DNA of 64,000 nt from Thermodesulfobacteriaceae bacterium. GTDB taxonomy: Bacteria; Desulfobacterota; Thermodesulfobacteria; Thermodesulfobacteriales; Thermodesulfobacteriaceae. The stretch covers positions 1-64,000 of the forward strand of contig JANXAD010000004.1 in NCBI GenBank assembly GCA_025062245.1, in the 5' to 3' direction. This document shows, in pieces, positions 5,929 through 45,594 of the stretch. The notes beneath the pieces were generated by a model. It searched no databases. It had not been told where the DNA came from and saw only the letters and a program-made list of their open reading frames with translations. Within the stretch, counting starts at the first letter, position 1, and every line of letters starts with the position of its first letter. The position numbers were made by a program, and so were the translations under genes.

Positions 5929-6393
5929 ATGAAATGTCCCCGTTGTAAAGAGCCTGAAACTAAGGTTATTGACTCACGCACCATAGAAGATGGCTTTTCT
6001 ATAAGAAGAAGAAGGGAATGTTCAGTCTGTGGATACAGATTCACCACCTATGAAAAAATGGAATTAGATATAGTGGTAATAAAAAAGGATGGTAGAAGAG
6101 AGCCTTACGATAGAAACAAGTTACTTTCAGGCCTTAAAAAGGCTATCCATAAAAGACCCGTAAGTGAGGAAGTAATAAGAAATTTCGTTAAAGAATTAGA
6201 ATTAGATTTAATTCAAAAGGGAGAAATAGAGGTTCCTTCTTCTTATATTGGAGAAAAGGTTATGTCAGCTTTAAAAGAATGGGACAAAGTAGCTTACATA
6301 AGATTTGCTTCAGTTTATAGAGATTTTAAAGACCCCTTTGAATTTGTTGAACAAGTAGAGGGGCTTAAAAGGGAAAAAGGTGAAACTGATTAA
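5929..6393 (+). CDS. nrdR: transcriptional regulator NrdR
   Basis: MKCPRCKEPETKVIDSRTIEDGFSIRRRRECSVCGYRFTTYE zinc ribbon plus ATP-cone. Confidence 0.95.
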   Translation: MKCPRCKEPETKVIDSRTIEDGFSIRRRRECSVCGYRFTTYEKMELDIVVIKKDGRREPYDRNKLLSGLKKAIHKRPVSEEVIRNFVKELELDLIQKGEIEVPSSYIGEKVMSALKEWDKVAYIRFASVYRDFKDPFEFVEQVEGLKREKGETD

Positions 6394-7120
6394 GCTACCG
6401 GCAGAAGAAAGAATAATTTTTCCTTTAGATGTAAGTTCCTCTGAAGAGGCTACCCTTTGGGTAGAAAGATTAAATCCCTTTATAGGGGTTTTTAAAATAG
6501 GTTTAGAACTCTTTATTTCAGAGGGTCCTCAAATAATAGAAAAAATAAGAAATAAAACCAACAAAAAAATTTTTTTAGACTTAAAATTAAACGACATTCC
6601 CAATACGGTAAGTAAAGCGGTAAGAGTTATTTCAAATATGGGAGTAGATTGGGTTAGTGTGCATCTTTTAGCAGGAAGTTTAGCTTTACGTAAAGCTTTA
6701 GAATTGGCTTATAACAATTTAAAGATCATAGGAATTACCATTTTGACTTCCTTAGATAGAGCCGATCTTTTAGAATTAGGATTTAATGCAGAATTAGCAA
6801 AAGATCTTAAGGAATTAGTTTTAAGATTAGCTTTTTTAGCCTATCAAACAGGTTGTGAAGGTATAGTTTGTTCTGCTAAAGAGGTAGAAAAAGTTAAGGA
6901 AAACTTTCCAGAATTAATAACCATAGTTCCAGGGATAAGACTAAGTGAGGAAAGAAGAGATGACCAGTTAAGAACTGCTACTCCTTATGAGGCTATTCTC
7001 TTGGGAGCAGACTATTTGGTAATTGGAAGACCTATTAAAGAGGCCTCTTTTCCAGAGAAAGTTTGTGAAGAAATAATAGTTCAAATTAAAAGGGCTTTAG
7101 AAGAAAGAGAGGATGATTAA
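6380..7120 (+). CDS. pyrF: orotidine-5'-phosphate decarboxylase
   Basis: FPLDVSSSEEA, KIFLDLKLNDIPNTV, VPGIRL, YLVIGRPI motifs. Confidence 0.93.
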   Translation: MKLIKLPAEERIIFPLDVSSSEEATLWVERLNPFIGVFKIGLELFISEGPQIIEKIRNKTNKKIFLDLKLNDIPNTVSKAVRVISNMGVDWVSVHLLAGSLALRKALELAYNNLKIIGITILTSLDRADLLELGFNAELAKDLKELVLRLAFLAYQTGCEGIVCSAKEVEKVKENFPELITIVPGIRLSEERRDDQLRTATPYEAILLGADYLVIGRPIKEASFPEKVCEEIIVQIKRALEEREDD

Positions 7121-20223: not shown

Positions 20224-21363
20224 ATGAAAAAAGAAAAGATAAAAGCTTTGGTAATGTTGGAAGATGGAACCTATTTTTGGGGATGGTCTTTTGCTGGAAG
20301 GGGAGAAACTTTTGGTGAAATAGTTTTTAATACAGGTATGACAGGTTATCAAGAAATTCTTACAGACCCCTCTTATTATGGTCAAATTGTTACTATGACC
20401 TATCCCTTAATCGGTAATTATGGGATTAATTTTGAAGATTTAGAAAGTGAACGGATTCAAGTAGCTGGATTTATGGTTAGAGAATATCAACCCTTTTATA
20501 GTAACTGGAGGGCTACTAAATCCTTAGGTGATTGGCTTTCTGAAAACGGTATTTTAGGAATAGAGGGAATAGATACCAGAGCTCTTACAAGACACATCAG
20601 ACTTTTTGGAGCTATGAAAGGTGGGATTACTACAGAAACCTTAAACCCTAAGGAATTTTTAGAAAAAGTAAAACTTAGTCCGGATTATGTAGGAAGAGAT
20701 TTAATTCAGTATGTAACTTGTAAAGAACCTTATTATTATGGAAAAAACGGCAAGGAAATGAGAAAGCATTTTAAGGGAGAAGGAAAATATAAAATAGCGG
20801 TATTAGATTGTGGTTTAAAGTTTAATCAATTAAGACTTATGGTAGAAAGAGGTGCTGAGTGTTTGATTTTTCCTGCTTTTACTAAGGCAGAAGAAATTTT
20901 AGCTTGTAATCCTGATGGAGTTTTTTTATCTAATGGACCTGGGGATCCAGCTCCACTTAAATATGTAGTTTCTACAGTTAAGGAACTTTTGGGAAAAAAG
21001 CCTTTATTTGGAATCTGTCTTGGTCATCAAATTCTTGGACAAGCTCTGGGTGCTGAAACTTATAAGTTAAAATTTGGACATCGGGGAATTAATCATCCTG
21101 TTTTGAATTTGATTAATAAAAAAGTGGAAATAACCTCTCAAAATCACGGTTTTTGTGTAAATCCCGACAAATTACCCAAGGAAGTATGGATTACCCATCT
21201 TAATTTAAACGATAATACCTTAGAAGGAATTTATGTTCCAGAAATAAAGGCCTTCTCTGTTCAATATCATCCAGAACATGCTCCTGGTCCTCAAGACTCC
21301 GTTTATCTTTTTGATACTTTTTTCAAGTTAATGGAGGGAAGAGTTGAAAATTTATACACCTAA
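20224..21363 (+). CDS. carA: carbamoyl-phosphate synthase small subunit
   Basis: FNTGMTGYQEILTDPSYYGQIVTMTYPLIGNYG; GATase motif FGICLGHQILGQALG. Confidence 0.95.
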   Translation: MKKEKIKALVMLEDGTYFWGWSFAGRGETFGEIVFNTGMTGYQEILTDPSYYGQIVTMTYPLIGNYGINFEDLESERIQVAGFMVREYQPFYSNWRATKSLGDWLSENGILGIEGIDTRALTRHIRLFGAMKGGITTETLNPKEFLEKVKLSPDYVGRDLIQYVTCKEPYYYGKNGKEMRKHFKGEGKYKIAVLDCGLKFNQLRLMVERGAECLIFPAFTKAEEILACNPDGVFLSNGPGDPAPLKYVVSTVKELLGKKPLFGICLGHQILGQALGAETYKLKFGHRGINHPVLNLINKKVEITSQNHGFCVNPDKLPKEVWITHLNLNDNTLEGIYVPEIKAFSVQYHPEHAPGPQDSVYLFDTFFKLMEGRVENLYT

Positions 21364-24747: not shown

Positions 24748-25728
24748 TTAAGAAGAACTACTTTTAAGTTGATTATATCTTTCTATAATTTCTTTTAAAG
24801 TAAAAAAAGACTCTAAGTGGTAACCTAATTCTTTAAGATTTTCTTTCCCCCCTTCCTCTCTATCAATTAGGGCTAAAATTTTAACAATTTGAAGTTCTGC
24901 CTCTTTACAAGCAGAAATAGCTTTAATTAAAGAGCTACCTGTAGTTACTACATCTTCTACTAAAACCACTATCATTCCTTTTTTAAAATTACCTTCTATT
25001 TGTTTTTGAGTCCCATATGGCTTAGGTTCCTTTCTTATTAAGAGACCTTCTAAGGGGATATTCTCACTGGATGCTTGAGCTAAAACGGCACTAACAATAG
25101 GATCTGCCCCCATACTCATTCCTGCAACTCCATCTATTTTTAAATACTTTATTTCGTTCCAAAAAAGTGCTCCAATTAAATTGAAAGTGTTAGAAAATAA
25201 GGTAATTTTTCTACAGTCTAAATAATAGGGACTTTCTTTTCCACTGGCTAAAAGAAAGGGTTTATTAGGACTATAAAGAAAAGCCCGTTCTAATATATAG
25301 GGAAATAGTTCTTCTTTCAAAAACTCCTTTTGCAAAACTTTGACTAATTCTACCCAAAGAGAAGTTTCTCTTAAAAATTGTTTCAGTTCTTTTTCAGCTT
25401 CCTCAGGTCCTTTGATACAGGCTAAATTATAATAGATCAAGTCTCTCATATAGGTATAACTTTCAGGAGATATCCAAATAATTTTAATTCCAAAACCATG
25501 ATTATGACCCCATACCACTTCTCCTCTAATTTCTAATTTTATAGGCGGGTCACAGCCTTCTAAATAGATAATTAAGTAAATTTCCTCTCCTACTTCAAGA
25601 GGATCTTTAGTTTTTAAAAATAGCCCTTCATAACTTATATTTTCTACTTCTCCTTCTCCCACTTTATTTTTACAGATATACTTAACTTTAGAAGAAAAGG
25701 GAGTCCTAAAATATTTTCTTCTTTCCAT
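24748..25728 (-). CDS. pyrE: PilZ domain-orotate phosphoribosyltransferase fusion
   Basis: N-terminus MERRKYFRTPF (RxxxR) and VENISYEGLFL (NxSxxG) = PilZ c-di-GMP motifs; C-terminus LASGKESPYYLDCRKIT and IVVLVEDVVTTGSSLIKAI = OPRTase with PRPP loop. Confidence 0.9.
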   Translation of the reverse strand: MERRKYFRTPFSSKVKYICKNKVGEGEVENISYEGLFLKTKDPLEVGEEIYLIIYLEGCDPPIKLEIRGEVVWGHNHGFGIKIIWISPESYTYMRDLIYYNLACIKGPEEAEKELKQFLRETSLWVELVKVLQKEFLKEELFPYILERAFLYSPNKPFLLASGKESPYYLDCRKITLFSNTFNLIGALFWNEIKYLKIDGVAGMSMGADPIVSAVLAQASSENIPLEGLLIRKEPKPYGTQKQIEGNFKKGMIVVLVEDVVTTGSSLIKAISACKEAELQIVKILALIDREEGGKENLKELGYHLESFFTLKEIIERYNQLKSSSS

Positions 25729-25738
25729 AAAAAGTTTT

Positions 25739-27628
25739 TTAATTTAATCTTTTGGTTTTTTTTAAATAAAATCTTCTTAACTCATCAATATCGTAGATTA
25801 AACTTTGGGTAAAGTTTTCATTTTCGGTATGTATGATATAGTTAAAAAATTTATCCCAACCCTTTTGAATTTTAATGTGAACTAAAACTACAATTCTATT
25901 TTTAAATCTATTTTCTATACTTTTCATTTTTTCTTTTTCATAGGTATCTTCTGGAATACCATCGGTAATAAAAAGTAAATCTCCTTTAAAGTTTTCTTTT
26001 TCCATAATATTATTTATAAAAGATAAAGGTTTATAATAATTTGTACCTCCCCCTGCACCTACTCTACTTACAGCTTCTAAAAAACGTTTCATTTGTTCCA
26101 AAAAGTTTCCTTTTAACTTTTGTTTTTTACCTCCTTTTTTGACTAAATAAAAATTTCTTTTATAATACAAAAATCCAAAATCAGATTGAACATTAAAAAA
26201 GGTTAGAATAAAAGGAATATTTTTATGAATAGCTTGTATAAGATAAAAGAGAGCGATGGCTTTAGCTTTACTTATGTTATCATTTTCTAACATAGAAGCA
26301 GAAACATCAATACACATAACAAAAGCACCATATCCAGCTTTTTCCTTAATTATATCTGGATATACTTTTAAGTTTCTTTCATAAAAATCTTTAACAAAAA
26401 GTTTTTTTTGATAGGTCATTTTAAGAAATTCATCTGAATAAAGTCTTTCTAAGTCATCTGAAAAGGTTATTCCAAATCTTGCAGGAGTTATTAATCTAAA
26501 TCTTTTAGCTTTCCAAAATTTCAACATATCTCCTAATAAAGAAAGAACTTTTTGTTTTTTAAGTTCTTTATAAATCATTATTCCCATAGCCTTCTCAGTA
26601 AGTTTTATTTCCTTATACTCCTTACCTGACAAAGTTACTAAAAACTCTTTTATTTCTTCTTTAGTTTTTTCAATATTTTCTAAATTTTTATCTAATTCTA
26701 AACCTAAATTTTCCTTGAGAAATTGTAAATCAGCTTTATAAATTTTTTCATTAAATGATTCGTATAAGTTTTCAACTATATATATAATATCTGAAGTTTT
26801 CTTTAAAAGATTTTCAATATTTTGTTCTCTTTTGTAATTTTTTAAAATTTCTTTAAACTTTTTTATAGTTTTTTCAAAGACAAATATATATTCTTTTATA
26901 TCTTTTAATTTTTTTATGGTTTTTTCCTTTTCAAGATATAAAATTTCATCAAGATTTAAATTATTATCAATTGCTTCAAATATTTTGTCAAAAAATCTTT
27001 CATTTACATCTTTCAATTCTTTTAAATTTTTTTCTATTAAACAAAAAATACTTAACATTTTTTCAAAAATTTCTTTTAGTTCTTCAGCATTAAAATTTAA
27101 AATTTCTTTGCCTATACTTTTAATAAGTTCTACAATTTGATTTTGAAACCCTTTTTCTTCTTCTTCAATTAAGAAGTAAAAATATAATAATTCTATAAGT
27201 TTATTATAAACATATTCGTGATAATATAAACTTATATTAAAATCTCCTTCTGTATAATCTTTAAACTTTTCAGTAAATTTAAGAATTAAAAGAGTAATGG
27301 TATTTTCTAAAGGATTTAAATCAAGTCTTTTTTTTACTTTACTATGATTATATAAAGCTTCAAAGGTTTCTAAAAATAGATCTGTTTTTATCTTATTTAA
27401 AACAAATTCTTTTTTAGTCTTTAGATCAGAAAAGTATTTTAAATCTCTCTCTGTATCGGCAAAGGAGGTGAGAATAAGAGGAGATTCAAAATCTTCGTGA
27501 AAGGTAGCATATTTTTCATAATCTTCAGAGGGATTAAAAAGTTTTATATAATCAATAGCCAGTCTTATGAGAGGGGGTATAATAAAGAATTCCCTTTCTA
27601 CCTTAGGTTTAAATTTAGCAAAAATCAT
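25739..27628 (-). CDS. von Willebrand factor A domain protein (ViaA/CoxE-like)
   Basis: MIDAS motif FVMCIDVSASM, GGGTNYYKPL, FITDGIPED; paired with AAA ATPase. Confidence 0.8.
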   Translation of the reverse strand: MIFAKFKPKVEREFFIIPPLIRLAIDYIKLFNPSEDYEKYATFHEDFESPLILTSFADTERDLKYFSDLKTKKEFVLNKIKTDLFLETFEALYNHSKVKKRLDLNPLENTITLLILKFTEKFKDYTEGDFNISLYYHEYVYNKLIELLYFYFLIEEEEKGFQNQIVELIKSIGKEILNFNAEELKEIFEKMLSIFCLIEKNLKELKDVNERFFDKIFEAIDNNLNLDEILYLEKEKTIKKLKDIKEYIFVFEKTIKKFKEILKNYKREQNIENLLKKTSDIIYIVENLYESFNEKIYKADLQFLKENLGLELDKNLENIEKTKEEIKEFLVTLSGKEYKEIKLTEKAMGIMIYKELKKQKVLSLLGDMLKFWKAKRFRLITPARFGITFSDDLERLYSDEFLKMTYQKKLFVKDFYERNLKVYPDIIKEKAGYGAFVMCIDVSASMLENDNISKAKAIALFYLIQAIHKNIPFILTFFNVQSDFGFLYYKRNFYLVKKGGKKQKLKGNFLEQMKRFLEAVSRVGAGGGTNYYKPLSFINNIMEKENFKGDLLFITDGIPEDTYEKEKMKSIENRFKNRIVVLVHIKIQKGWDKFFNYIIHTENENFTQSLIYDIDELRRFYLKKTKRLN

Positions 27629-29153
27629 TCATTCTCTCTTTAAATTTATTAGTCCAATCTTTAAAATCTTCCTTAGGTTTAAGGGTATCAGCAACTAAAT
27701 CGGGAAGGGAATCCCAATGAATTTTAGGTTCAAAAAGGGATAGAAAGTATCTAATAGCATACAGAACACGAGCTTCATCTATAATTTCTGAGGGAATTTC
27801 TTTACATAACTCCTTAATCTTTTCTATATCCCTATAGAGTTCATAATAGTAATTGAGTTCTTCTTCCATTTCTAAGAAAACCTTTAAAAGTTCTCTTTCT
27901 TTCTTTTCAATCCAATTTTGTATTTCTTCTATTTTAATACTTTCTATATCTACATGTTTTTCATTATCCTTAAAAAGCCGTGCCAGTATCAATCCTAAGG
28001 TAGTGTTAAAAAAATCCATAACAAAGTTAAAGGCCTCTAAATTTTCATTTAATCGGTTTTGCCTCTTAGCCCTTTCTAAAAGGTCATCTAAAACCTCAGT
28101 AAGGGATTTTTTATAGCTTAGATAAAGATAATTAGGAGGTAAATCCAAATTAAAACTGTTTATGACAGTTTCCAAAATTTGAATCTTATTTAAAATCACA
28201 TCCTTCATAGAAACCACTAAATTAATAATCCTTTTAGCCTTTTGTTTTATGTCTTCTCTATCAGTATAAATGGCATTTTCTACTAAGAATCCTACATCTT
28301 CATGGGTTACAAAAATTCTATTTTCTAAAACAGCTAAAATTTGAGCATAAGACAAAATATTGGCATATTTTCTTAAAGAGATTACAGCAGCATCAGGAAG
28401 TTCCTCATAAAGATACTCCCAGAGAGGAATTCCTGCATAAGAAATGATAGCTGGAATTTTAACCTTTTTAGCTATTTCCTTAATTTGGTCTAAAATTTCA
28501 GGAGAAGCAATAGGAGTTTCAAAGTCAAATTGTCTCATCTTTTCTTCATCATCAGTTAAAACATTGATAATAGAAAAATAGGGAGGCCTATCCATGTAAG
28601 GAACCAATTCACATCTATCTACTACAGCAATCATACCATTTTGTTTAGCATATATATCCTCAAGTTCTTCATATACATTTCCAGTAAGAAAGATAGCTCT
28701 GGTTTTTCCTTTAAGCACTTGGTCCTCTGGAGTAATAATTCTTTCTAACATATAAGTAGTTAGAATAGCTTTGATTTTTACATCTAAGTAGGCAAATTCG
28801 TCATAAATGTGAACTAAGGTATTTAAAAATCTTTCAGTTTTTCTTTGAAGTTTATTTTCCTTAAGAAGTTTTTCTGGGTCAAAATGTCCAATAATATCTT
28901 CTTTAGAGGTTCCTACATCCATATTTTTGTAAAAAACCTTATCCTTTCCGTAAAAAGCTGAAGCAGCCAGTCTTATCAAACGAGTCTTTGAAATTCCAGC
29001 AGGACCTATTAAATACATTACACCACCCTTTATTAAATTTAAAAGAACTAAGTCTATGATATGAGGTTGCCCCTTTACATAATCTCTAAGAATTTTTCTC
29101 ACCCTGTTTATTTCTTCTATAGCATAGTTCAAGGTCAATTCTATTTTTTCCAA
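27615..29153 (-). CDS. MoxR/RavA-type AAA+ ATPase
   Basis: MYLIGPAGISKTRLIRL Walker A variant as in RavA (GPPGIAKS), VHIYDEFAY Walker B, overlaps VWA gene. Confidence 0.75.
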   Translation of the reverse strand: MEKIELTLNYAIEEINRVRKILRDYVKGQPHIIDLVLLNLIKGGVMYLIGPAGISKTRLIRLAASAFYGKDKVFYKNMDVGTSKEDIIGHFDPEKLLKENKLQRKTERFLNTLVHIYDEFAYLDVKIKAILTTYMLERIITPEDQVLKGKTRAIFLTGNVYEELEDIYAKQNGMIAVVDRCELVPYMDRPPYFSIINVLTDDEEKMRQFDFETPIASPEILDQIKEIAKKVKIPAIISYAGIPLWEYLYEELPDAAVISLRKYANILSYAQILAVLENRIFVTHEDVGFLVENAIYTDREDIKQKAKRIINLVVSMKDVILNKIQILETVINSFNLDLPPNYLYLSYKKSLTEVLDDLLERAKRQNRLNENLEAFNFVMDFFNTTLGLILARLFKDNEKHVDIESIKIEEIQNWIEKKERELLKVFLEMEEELNYYYELYRDIEKIKELCKEIPSEIIDEARVLYAIRYFLSLFEPKIHWDSLPDLVADTLKPKEDFKDWTNKFKERMNDFC

Positions 29154-43025: not shown

Positions 43026-44213
43026 ATGAAAATTTTTACTTTTGGTTGGGAAAATTTTTCTGAAATAAATCCAGAAGTTTTACTGGAAATTTTTAAGAAA
43101 GGTTTAAGATTTGATTCAAATCCTGATTTAATCTTAATTTTTGCTCCCCCTAAATTTCTTAATCTAAACTTAAGTGAAAAACTAAAAAGAGAGTTTCCTT
43201 CTACTTCAGTGGTAGGAGTGTCAGCTTATGGAGTTATCAGTAATGAAAAGCTCTTTTATAATGGGATAACAGGTTTAATGTTAAAGTTTACTAAGGGTGG
43301 TTCCTTAAAAGTTTCCTATGAAAATAACATTTCTAATAAGGTGGAAGAGATAAAAGAGAAATTTAAGAAGATTTATTTAAATCCAGAGTATCCCTCCCAT
43401 TTAATATGGACCTCAGCTCCTAATAGCGTAATTAACGAGGTTTTGGATGGTCTTTACGAATTACCTTCCTATCCTTTTAGTTTGTGGGGAGGAGTAGCTT
43501 CCTTTTCCCATCCCCATGGAAAAGCAAGAATTCTTTATGAAGATCAGATAATAGAAGACGGATTTTTAGTTCTAAGTTTTCAAAAGGTGCAAATATATTC
43601 TTCCATTTCCTTAGGATTTTTGCCCTTAGGTTTAAGTTATAAGATAACTAAGGCTAAAGAAAACAAAGTTTATGAAATAGAAAATGTTTCGGCAGAAAAA
43701 TTTTTAGAAAAACTTTTTAAAGGAACTACATTAAAGCTTGAAGATTTGAAAAACAAAGAGGTAGTTAAAGATACTTTGTGGGCTTTTCCTATTGTTCTTT
43801 TAAATAGGGAAGAGGGGTATGTCTCGGTTCTAAGAACTTTTAAAAACTTTAATTTAAAAGAGGGCTGTATGGAATTTTATGGAAACCTTAGGGTTGGAGA
43901 TAGAATAAAATTTTGTATAGGAGATCCCAAGCTTATTTTAGAGGATGTTAAGAAGCGCTTTAATAAATTTAGAGGGGAAGTAAATAAAAATAGTTTAGAG
44001 GTTTTGATTTATGTTTCCTGTGTGGCGAGAAATTATATCATGGCTAAAGAAGGACATTCCTATGAGGAATTTAGTTTGTGTAAATCCCTGTTTCCTGAAC
44101 AGGAGATAGTAGGTTTTCTAAGTTTTGGAGAGATAGGACATGATAAAAGAAACCGACCTGGTATGTTTTATAATGAAACCTCTATTTTAATAGGATTAAA
44201 GGAAGATGGATGA
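43026..44213 (+). CDS. FIST-domain sensory protein
   Basis: FIST_N/FIST_C-like organisation (VVGVSAYGVISNEKLFYNGITGLML; EIVGFLSFGEIGHDKRNRPGMFYNETSILIGL); overlaps GGDEF-EAL gene. Confidence 0.75.
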   Translation: MKIFTFGWENFSEINPEVLLEIFKKGLRFDSNPDLILIFAPPKFLNLNLSEKLKREFPSTSVVGVSAYGVISNEKLFYNGITGLMLKFTKGGSLKVSYENNISNKVEEIKEKFKKIYLNPEYPSHLIWTSAPNSVINEVLDGLYELPSYPFSLWGGVASFSHPHGKARILYEDQIIEDGFLVLSFQKVQIYSSISLGFLPLGLSYKITKAKENKVYEIENVSAEKFLEKLFKGTTLKLEDLKNKEVVKDTLWAFPIVLLNREEGYVSVLRTFKNFNLKEGCMEFYGNLRVGDRIKFCIGDPKLILEDVKKRFNKFRGEVNKNSLEVLIYVSCVARNYIMAKEGHSYEEFSLCKSLFPEQEIVGFLSFGEIGHDKRNRPGMFYNETSILIGLKEDG

Positions 44214-45594
44214 AGAGAAAATTTATTACCAAACTAAGTCTAAAATTTTAGAAAACCTGCTTTTGGAATTAAGTTACAGGTATGATAATTTTATAGACCT
44301 ATTAGAGGAGGAAAAAGCAAGATTAAAACATTTAGATTTTTTGACTGGACTTTTATCCAGAGATAGCTTTTTTGAGACCCTTTCTTACTTTGTTAAAAAA
44401 TCTAATTTAGAAAATAGAAAATTTTTTCTCATAATTTTAGATTTAGATAATTTTAAATTTATAAATAATACCTATGGAAGAGAAATAGGAGATTTCGTTT
44501 TAAAAGCCTTTGCGGATTTCTTGAAAGATCTTTTCGAGGATGAGGAGATTTTTATAGGAAGAACAGGAGAGGATGAATTTTCTATTCTTTTATGGGAAAT
44601 GGAAAACTTAAATTCTTTTTTAGAATTTTTAGGAGAGAAAATAAAGACCTTCTATTTAATAATTGACCATATTAAATTGGGGGTTACTGTTTCAGCAGGA
44701 ATAGCTTCTTTTCCGCAGGATGCGTGTTCTTCCCAAGAACTTTACCAAAAAGCTTCCCAAGCTCTTTGTGTATCTAAAAATAGGGGAAAAAGTACCTTTA
44801 CTTGTTATCATCCCCACATATTAGATTATTTCAAAGATGTAAGCCAAATCAAAAACCTTTTAGATAGAGCTCTTTCTTTAAAAGAAGTATATCCCTTTAT
44901 TCAACCTATTTATAATCTCAAAAAAATGGAACCGGTAGGAGGAGAAATCTTACTGAGAATTAGGAGTGAAAATCGATTCATTGTAGCTTCTTCTTTTATA
45001 GATGTAGCCATTAAATACGGTTATATAGAAGAAATGGAAAGGATCCTTATAAAAAAAATTATCCAGTTTGAAGAATTTTTAAAAACCTTAAGGGGAAAGG
45101 CTCTTTTTATTAATAAAGTAATAAATTCAGAAAAAAGAGCTGAGGAATTAAAAGAGGTAATTCCTATTTTTCAGGAATTTAAAAAATCTTACGATATAGA
45201 GGTAGTTTTAGAAATAACAGAAAGTTCCTTTGTAGAATATTTTGAACTTATTTCTGAACCTATTATTACTCTTAGAAAAAGTGGAATACTTTTTGCCTTA
45301 GATGATTTTGGAGGAGGTTATACTTCTCTTAAATATCTTTTAAATTTTGATTTAGATTTTTTAAAAATTGAAGGAAGTTTTATAAAATCTATTTTTGAAA
45401 ATGATAAAGCTAAATTGATTTTAAAAAATATAGTTAATTTAGCCAAGGAATTAAATATTAAGGTGGTTGCAGAATGTATAGAGAATAAAGAAATGTTAGA
45501 TTTATTAAAGAGATTAGAAATAGATTACGCCCAAGGTTATTACTTAGGGGAACCTATCTCCTTAGAAGAATTTATAAATATTTTTAAGAAGTAG
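44206..45594 (+). CDS. GGDEF-EAL domain protein
   Basis: IGRTGEDEFSILL (GEDEF), GGEILLRI at EAL position, LDDFGGGYTSLKYLLNFDLDFLKIEG. Confidence 0.9.
   Translation: MDEEKIYYQTKSKILENLLLELSYRYDNFIDLLEEEKARLKHLDFLTGLLSRDSFFETLSYFVKKSNLENRKFFLIILDLDNFKFINNTYGREIGDFVLKAFADFLKDLFEDEEIFIGRTGEDEFSILLWEMENLNSFLEFLGEKIKTFYLIIDHIKLGVTVSAGIASFPQDACSSQELYQKASQALCVSKNRGKSTFTCYHPHILDYFKDVSQIKNLLDRALSLKEVYPFIQPIYNLKKMEPVGGEILLRIRSENRFIVASSFIDVAIKYGYIEEMERILIKKIIQFEEFLKTLRGKALFINKVINSEKRAEELKEVIPIFQEFKKSYDIEVVLEITESSFVEYFELISEPIITLRKSGILFALDDFGGGYTSLKYLLNFDLDFLKIEGSFIKSIFENDKAKLILKNIVNLAKELNIKVVAECIENKEMLDLLKRLEIDYAQGYYLGEPISLEEFINIFKK

Follow-up and report, generated by a model that had tools for sequence, protein, structure and literature searches.

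PilZ domains typically act as sensors of c-di-GMP, a bacterial signal best known as a switch for motility, adhesion, and polysaccharide secretion. The action of PilZ domains on enzymes to which they are fused is an established theme (PMC10333796). For example, in the cellulose synthase BcsA (PMC10333796) and in Alg44, a PilZ domain with both binding motifs lies in the same chain as its effector, which in both cases serves exopolysaccharide production at the membrane. By contrast, MapZ (PA4608) of Pseudomonas aeruginosa, a PilZ fold with C-terminal helices and both binding motifs, is a separate protein that acts in trans on a chemotaxis enzyme; c-di-GMP-bound MapZ inhibits the methyltransferase CheR1, whereas MapZ alone does not (PMC6370697). 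As for the enzymes of UMP synthesis, ordinary orotate phosphoribosyltransferase (OPRT, PyrE) is about 180–210 amino acids long and has no sensor domain, while bifunctional UMP synthases (PyrE-PyrF fusions, e.g., Leishmania UMP synthase) contain a fused OPRT domain whose partner is the next enzyme of the pathway. To our knowledge, the links between c-di-GMP and pyrimidine metabolism have so far been indirect. In E. coli, blocked UMP synthesis changes the production of curli and cellulose (PMC3281075).

Here, we analyzed a stretch of DNA of 64,000 nucleotides (the window; contig JANXAD010000004.1) from a Thermodesulfobacteriaceae bacterium, in which a single gene encodes a PilZ domain followed by an OPRT domain (Table 1). 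The hosts of this fusion are heat-loving, sulfate-metabolising bacteria. Similar to BcsA and Alg44, the protein combines both c-di-GMP motifs with an effector in one chain, but this effector is a soluble enzyme that serves UMP synthesis; similar to MapZ, its PilZ part has C-terminal helices, but it is tethered to a biosynthetic enzyme. It shares with ordinary PyrE (TIGR00336) the whole catalytic domain and the active-site residues, and it differs from UMP synthase in that OPRT is joined to a signal-binding domain, with pyrF encoded separately. We refer to MapZ as an analogy for the PilZ part and do not claim that the fusion is a MapZ. While PilZ-enzyme fusions are already known, the type of effector, a core biosynthetic enzyme, appears to be new, and no description of a PilZ-OPRT protein was found in titles and abstracts of the open-licence literature on PilZ and phosphoribosyltransferase.

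Table 1. Coordinates of the PilZ-PyrE fusion, its parts, and other genes discussed in the text (positions in the window).
Feature	Position	Strand	Basis and remarks
PilZ-PyrE fusion protein	24748..25728	-	326 aa; ATG at 25728, stop at 24748; single open frame, both families above curated cut-offs, 22 full-length homologues
MapZ-like PilZ module, residues 1-124	25357..25728	-	Six-stranded barrel and two C-terminal helices; AlphaFold model, Foldseek best matches MapZ 5y4r/5xly, PA4608 profile match
RxxxR motif RKYFR, residues 4-8	25705..25719	-	Arginines invariant in 23/23 fusions
(D/N)xSxxG motif NISYEG, residues 30-35	25624..25641	-	Intact in 18/23 fusions
Interdomain helix, residues 124-149	25282..25359	-	AlphaFold model; continuous with the N-terminal helix of OPRT
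OPRT (PyrE) catalytic domain, residues 156-314	24787..25263	-	TIGR00336; catalytic loop RKEPK at residues 232-236, PRPP motif VLVEDVVTTGSS
MoxR-like AAA ATPase and VWA-domain protein	25739-29153	-	Two genes
pyrF, orotidine-5'-phosphate decarboxylase	6380..7120	+	NCBIfam NF001273, 231.6 bits, cut-off 193; next pathway enzyme
carA, carbamoyl-phosphate synthase small chain	20224..21363	+	Pfam; first pathway step
FIST-domain protein and GGDEF-EAL protein	43026-45594	+	Two genes
GGDEF-EAL protein	44206..45594	+	Pfam; GGDEF signature reads GEDEF

A preliminary description of this locus, made from the DNA letters, had proposed one uninterrupted ORF joining PilZ to OPRT, and this was confirmed by the single frame together with the matches to Pfam PilZ (residues 2–99, 48.8 bits, cut-off 22.5) and NCBIfam pyrE TIGR00336 (residues 156–314, 130.7–132.6 bits, cut-off 106.8). 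It had also warned that an assembly error might have joined two genes. This concern is ruled out by full-length homologues in 22 further genomes, which share 49–79% identity with the window protein and include closed chromosomes, such as one of 1,634,377 bp (G005:C1), and the probability that an assembly or frame artefact accounts for the fusion is therefore vanishingly small. An internal start that would yield a separate OPRT was also rejected, as a conserved ribosome-binding site for such a start was looked for and not found.

The same description had suggested searching for the two-domain architecture across genomes. Full-length fusions were found in 23 genomes from three genera of Thermodesulfobacteriaceae, with 15 in g1 (the window's genus, its own genome counted), seven in g6, and one in g2, which is every sampled genome of these genera; Thermodesulfobacteriaceae UBA6232 (L045) is among the matches listed. 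Among 396 genomes sampled from the phylum, the fusion was confined to members of g1, g2, and g6, and it was not seen in samples of 121 Aquificota and 118 Nitrospirota genomes, so that a widespread or convergent fusion was rejected within these samples. Each fused genome has the fusion as its sole PyrE above the TIGR00336 cut-off, other matches being weak, and hence no second, ordinary PyrE above the cut-off makes it dispensable.

In the tree of OPRT domains, the fused PyrEs form a clade of their own (support 99/99), while the PilZ-domain tree is poorly resolved and does not help to decide if the PilZ parts likewise group together. The sister genera g4 and g5 have an ordinary pyrE, which adjoins argB in the three genomes with the neighbourhood read. 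They also have a separate gene for a PilZ protein of the same type (123 amino acids), located beside radA in the genomes inspected for gene order. A homologue search of the fused genomes found no matching standalone copy of this PilZ type, and weak second PilZ matches in two of them (G005 and G009) belong to a different PilZ paralogue. The simplest reading is a single fusion event in the ancestor of part of the Thermodesulfobacteriaceae.

Two further arrangements were seen outside the fused genera. The g3 genome G016, which is incomplete and has no PyrE above the cut-off, contains an open frame of 661 amino acids with a stretch that weakly matches the PilZ part (G016:C59:1016-1345). G032, which belongs to another family within the order, has an ordinary pyrE separated by a single gene from a PilZ gene of another kind, which is encoded on the other strand (L133 6320-7950).

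The PilZ part of the fusion resembles MapZ in both predicted fold and sequence profile. Modelled alone, it forms a six-stranded barrel (pLDDT 80.7), for which Foldseek returned MapZ as the best match, including MapZ with c-di-GMP and CheR1 (5xly), followed by Alg44 with c-di-GMP. Further, a profile of the fused PilZ domains matched MapZ/PA4608 over residues 2–117 (E 4.6e-7), compared with an E of 0.017 for the next distinct protein, PlzA. These matches indicate that a complete MapZ-like protein, its predicted helices included, precedes the enzyme. The whole-protein AlphaFold model has a mean pLDDT of 85.5 and a pTM of 0.69, and its OPRT part matches solved OPRTs. A structure prediction of the interdomain contact had been proposed earlier, and its outcome is mixed: a long helix is predicted to lead from PilZ into OPRT, but at this pTM, and with a helix of moderate confidence, the model does not demonstrate that the PilZ site touches the OPRT active site. 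Because the pLDDT is about 65 at residues 101–130, the relative placement of the domains in the model is not established. Confidence is lowest in the N-terminal arm that carries R4 and R8, and the linker region is where the sequences diverge most (43% mean pairwise identity).

Both c-di-GMP contact motifs claimed for the PilZ domain are present, as R4-KYF-R8 and N30-I-S32-Y-E-G35. R4 and R8 are among the five PilZ-domain columns that are invariant in the 23 sequences. The second motif is intact in 15/15 fusions from g1, 3/7 from g6, and 0/1 from g2, and its changes are of one residue each: S to G (L015, L024), S to A (L027), and G to S (L020, L025). The preliminary description had considered that poor conservation of the motifs in homologues would count against its reading; this is true of (D/N)xSxxG, which is changed in five of the eight fusions outside the window's genus, but not of RxxxR. 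In the standalone PilZ relatives from g4 and g5, the serine is replaced by alanine in all four sequences read, and a more distant standalone relative (G032) retains it. The varied one-residue changes in g6 and g2 look like repeated loss of the second motif, with the fusion retained.

The pairwise dN/dS values are 0.06–0.24 for the PilZ domain and 0.03–0.18 for the OPRT domain. Therefore, both domains are under purifying selection, and a decaying, unconstrained PilZ domain is ruled out. Taken together, the invariant RxxxR, the pattern of the second motif, and purifying selection suggest that the g1 proteins are likely to bind c-di-GMP, and that binding by those of g6 and g2 is uncertain; for the window protein itself, we consider binding quite probable. 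In PilZ structures, a basic residue before RxxxR favours binding of a c-di-GMP dimer, and K or R directly precedes this motif in 22 of the 23 sequences.

The OPRT domain had been described as intact, and the alignment bears this out for its catalytic-loop and PRPP-binding residues, with R173, R232, K233, K236, E258, and D259 invariant in all 23 fusions. Position 238 is a tyrosine in all but one of them, as in human UMP synthase. Based on these residues, the fusion is expected to have OPRT activity. Of four genomes tested for an ordinary uracil phosphoribosyltransferase, three, the window's included, had none above the cut-off. However, PyrR is encoded elsewhere in the window's genome, and PyrR-type proteins can have uracil phosphoribosyltransferase activity, and therefore the missing ordinary enzyme is no proof that the fusion is essential.

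The neighbouring genes, named from their sequences (argJ and surE Pfam-confirmed), include argJ and genes of phosphate uptake and iron regulation, not of motility, and they differ between genera. The gene order is fusion-argJ-surE in the window, fur-feoA-fusion-pstS in several congeners, and fusion-permease-argJ in g6. At L137, L138, L141, and L142, the fusion is flanked by fur/feoA-type genes on one side and by pstS (phosphate transport) on the other, which suggests co-regulation with phosphate or iron status in those congeners. Directly upstream of the fusion in the window, the MoxR-like and VWA-domain genes lie in the same orientation across a gap of 10 bases and are possibly co-transcribed with it; a VWA gene is also upstream of the fusion in the close relative G006 (L147).

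From these observations we infer a regulatory reading, in which ligand binding, its stoichiometry, the allosteric coupling, and the sign of the effect are each a step beyond the presence of the motifs. A MapZ-like PilZ protein would have been fused once to the N-terminus of the cell's OPRT, and the fused gene would have become the sole PyrE. For the window's genus, we consider it most likely that the PilZ barrel binds c-di-GMP, the ligand probably being a c-di-GMP dimer given the basic residue before RxxxR. Binding would order the N-terminal RxxxR arm and alter the packing of the barrel on the C-terminal helices, which in the model connect through a single long helix to the initial helix of the OPRT domain, and thereby ligand binding would alter OPRT activity in cis. 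The likeliest sign would be inhibition, as for MapZ acting on CheR1, and UMP supply would be coupled to the decision between motile and sessile life.

By this analogy, allosteric control of OPRT by c-di-GMP is plausible, with chances that we put at about even and with inhibition slightly favoured, while the changes in the second motif outside the genus, the S-to-A replacement in the standalone relatives of sister genera, the moderate confidence of the interdomain helix, and the non-motility gene context argue against it. The wider claim, that the phosphoribosylation step of UMP synthesis is under direct allosteric control by c-di-GMP throughout the genus, via a PilZ domain on its sole PyrE, is more tentative and falls a little short of an even chance. 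As a whole, the best explanation, which we hold with evenly balanced confidence, is that a MapZ-like PilZ domain, fused once to the sole PyrE, lets c-di-GMP alter OPRT activity. If true, a sensor on the sole PyrE would constitute a direct link in the reverse direction, from the signal to nucleotide supply, and this could be tested on one soluble, probably thermostable protein, which both a cultured species and the window provide.

Alternatively, the PilZ module may be independent of c-di-GMP and play a structural role in folding, dimer or tetramer formation, or thermostability, its motif residues being kept structurally or by recent ancestry. Such a role would agree with the altered second motif in fusions that were never lost and with the standalone relatives in sister genera that also lack the serine. 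However, the expected ligand contacts R4 and R8, on the arm of lowest model confidence, are invariant, and the second motif is intact throughout the window's genus, which makes a purely structural module rather unlikely. It is also conceivable that PilZ binds c-di-GMP but is a docking or localisation module that recruits OPRT to another protein, with little direct effect on catalysis. No partner is apparent, and the neighbour genes differ between genera; although MapZ, the closest relative of the PilZ module, works through c-di-GMP-dependent protein contact, and the poor conservation of the linker also counts in favour of docking, we regard it as unlikely.

The fusion might even be accidental, a PilZ gene having been captured upstream of pyrE without selected coupling, so that the two parts work independently and PilZ remains a tethered c-di-GMP adaptor. 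This would accord with the standalone relative encoded by a separate gene beside radA in sister genera, and as the search of the fused genomes found no matching standalone copy, the tethered one may fulfil the original function. However, the fusion is retained without re-splitting in 23/23 genomes, and no ribosome-binding site is conserved that would give a separate OPRT start; an accident of this kind thus appears quite unlikely.

With respect to c-di-GMP turnover, the GGDEF-EAL protein noted earlier in the window is real, but its GEDEF signature makes it a weaker argument for c-di-GMP signalling than had been supposed. The broader claim that the organism has such signalling genes holds, as its genome contains 15 GGDEF matches, and the eight GGDEF domains inspected all have a canonical GGDEF/GGEEF signature. 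Several GGDEF domains were found in each of 32/32 genomes of the family. The GGDEF-EAL gene of the window follows a gene for a FIST-domain protein with an overlap of eight bases, and together they may form a sensor pair whose cyclase site is non-canonical.
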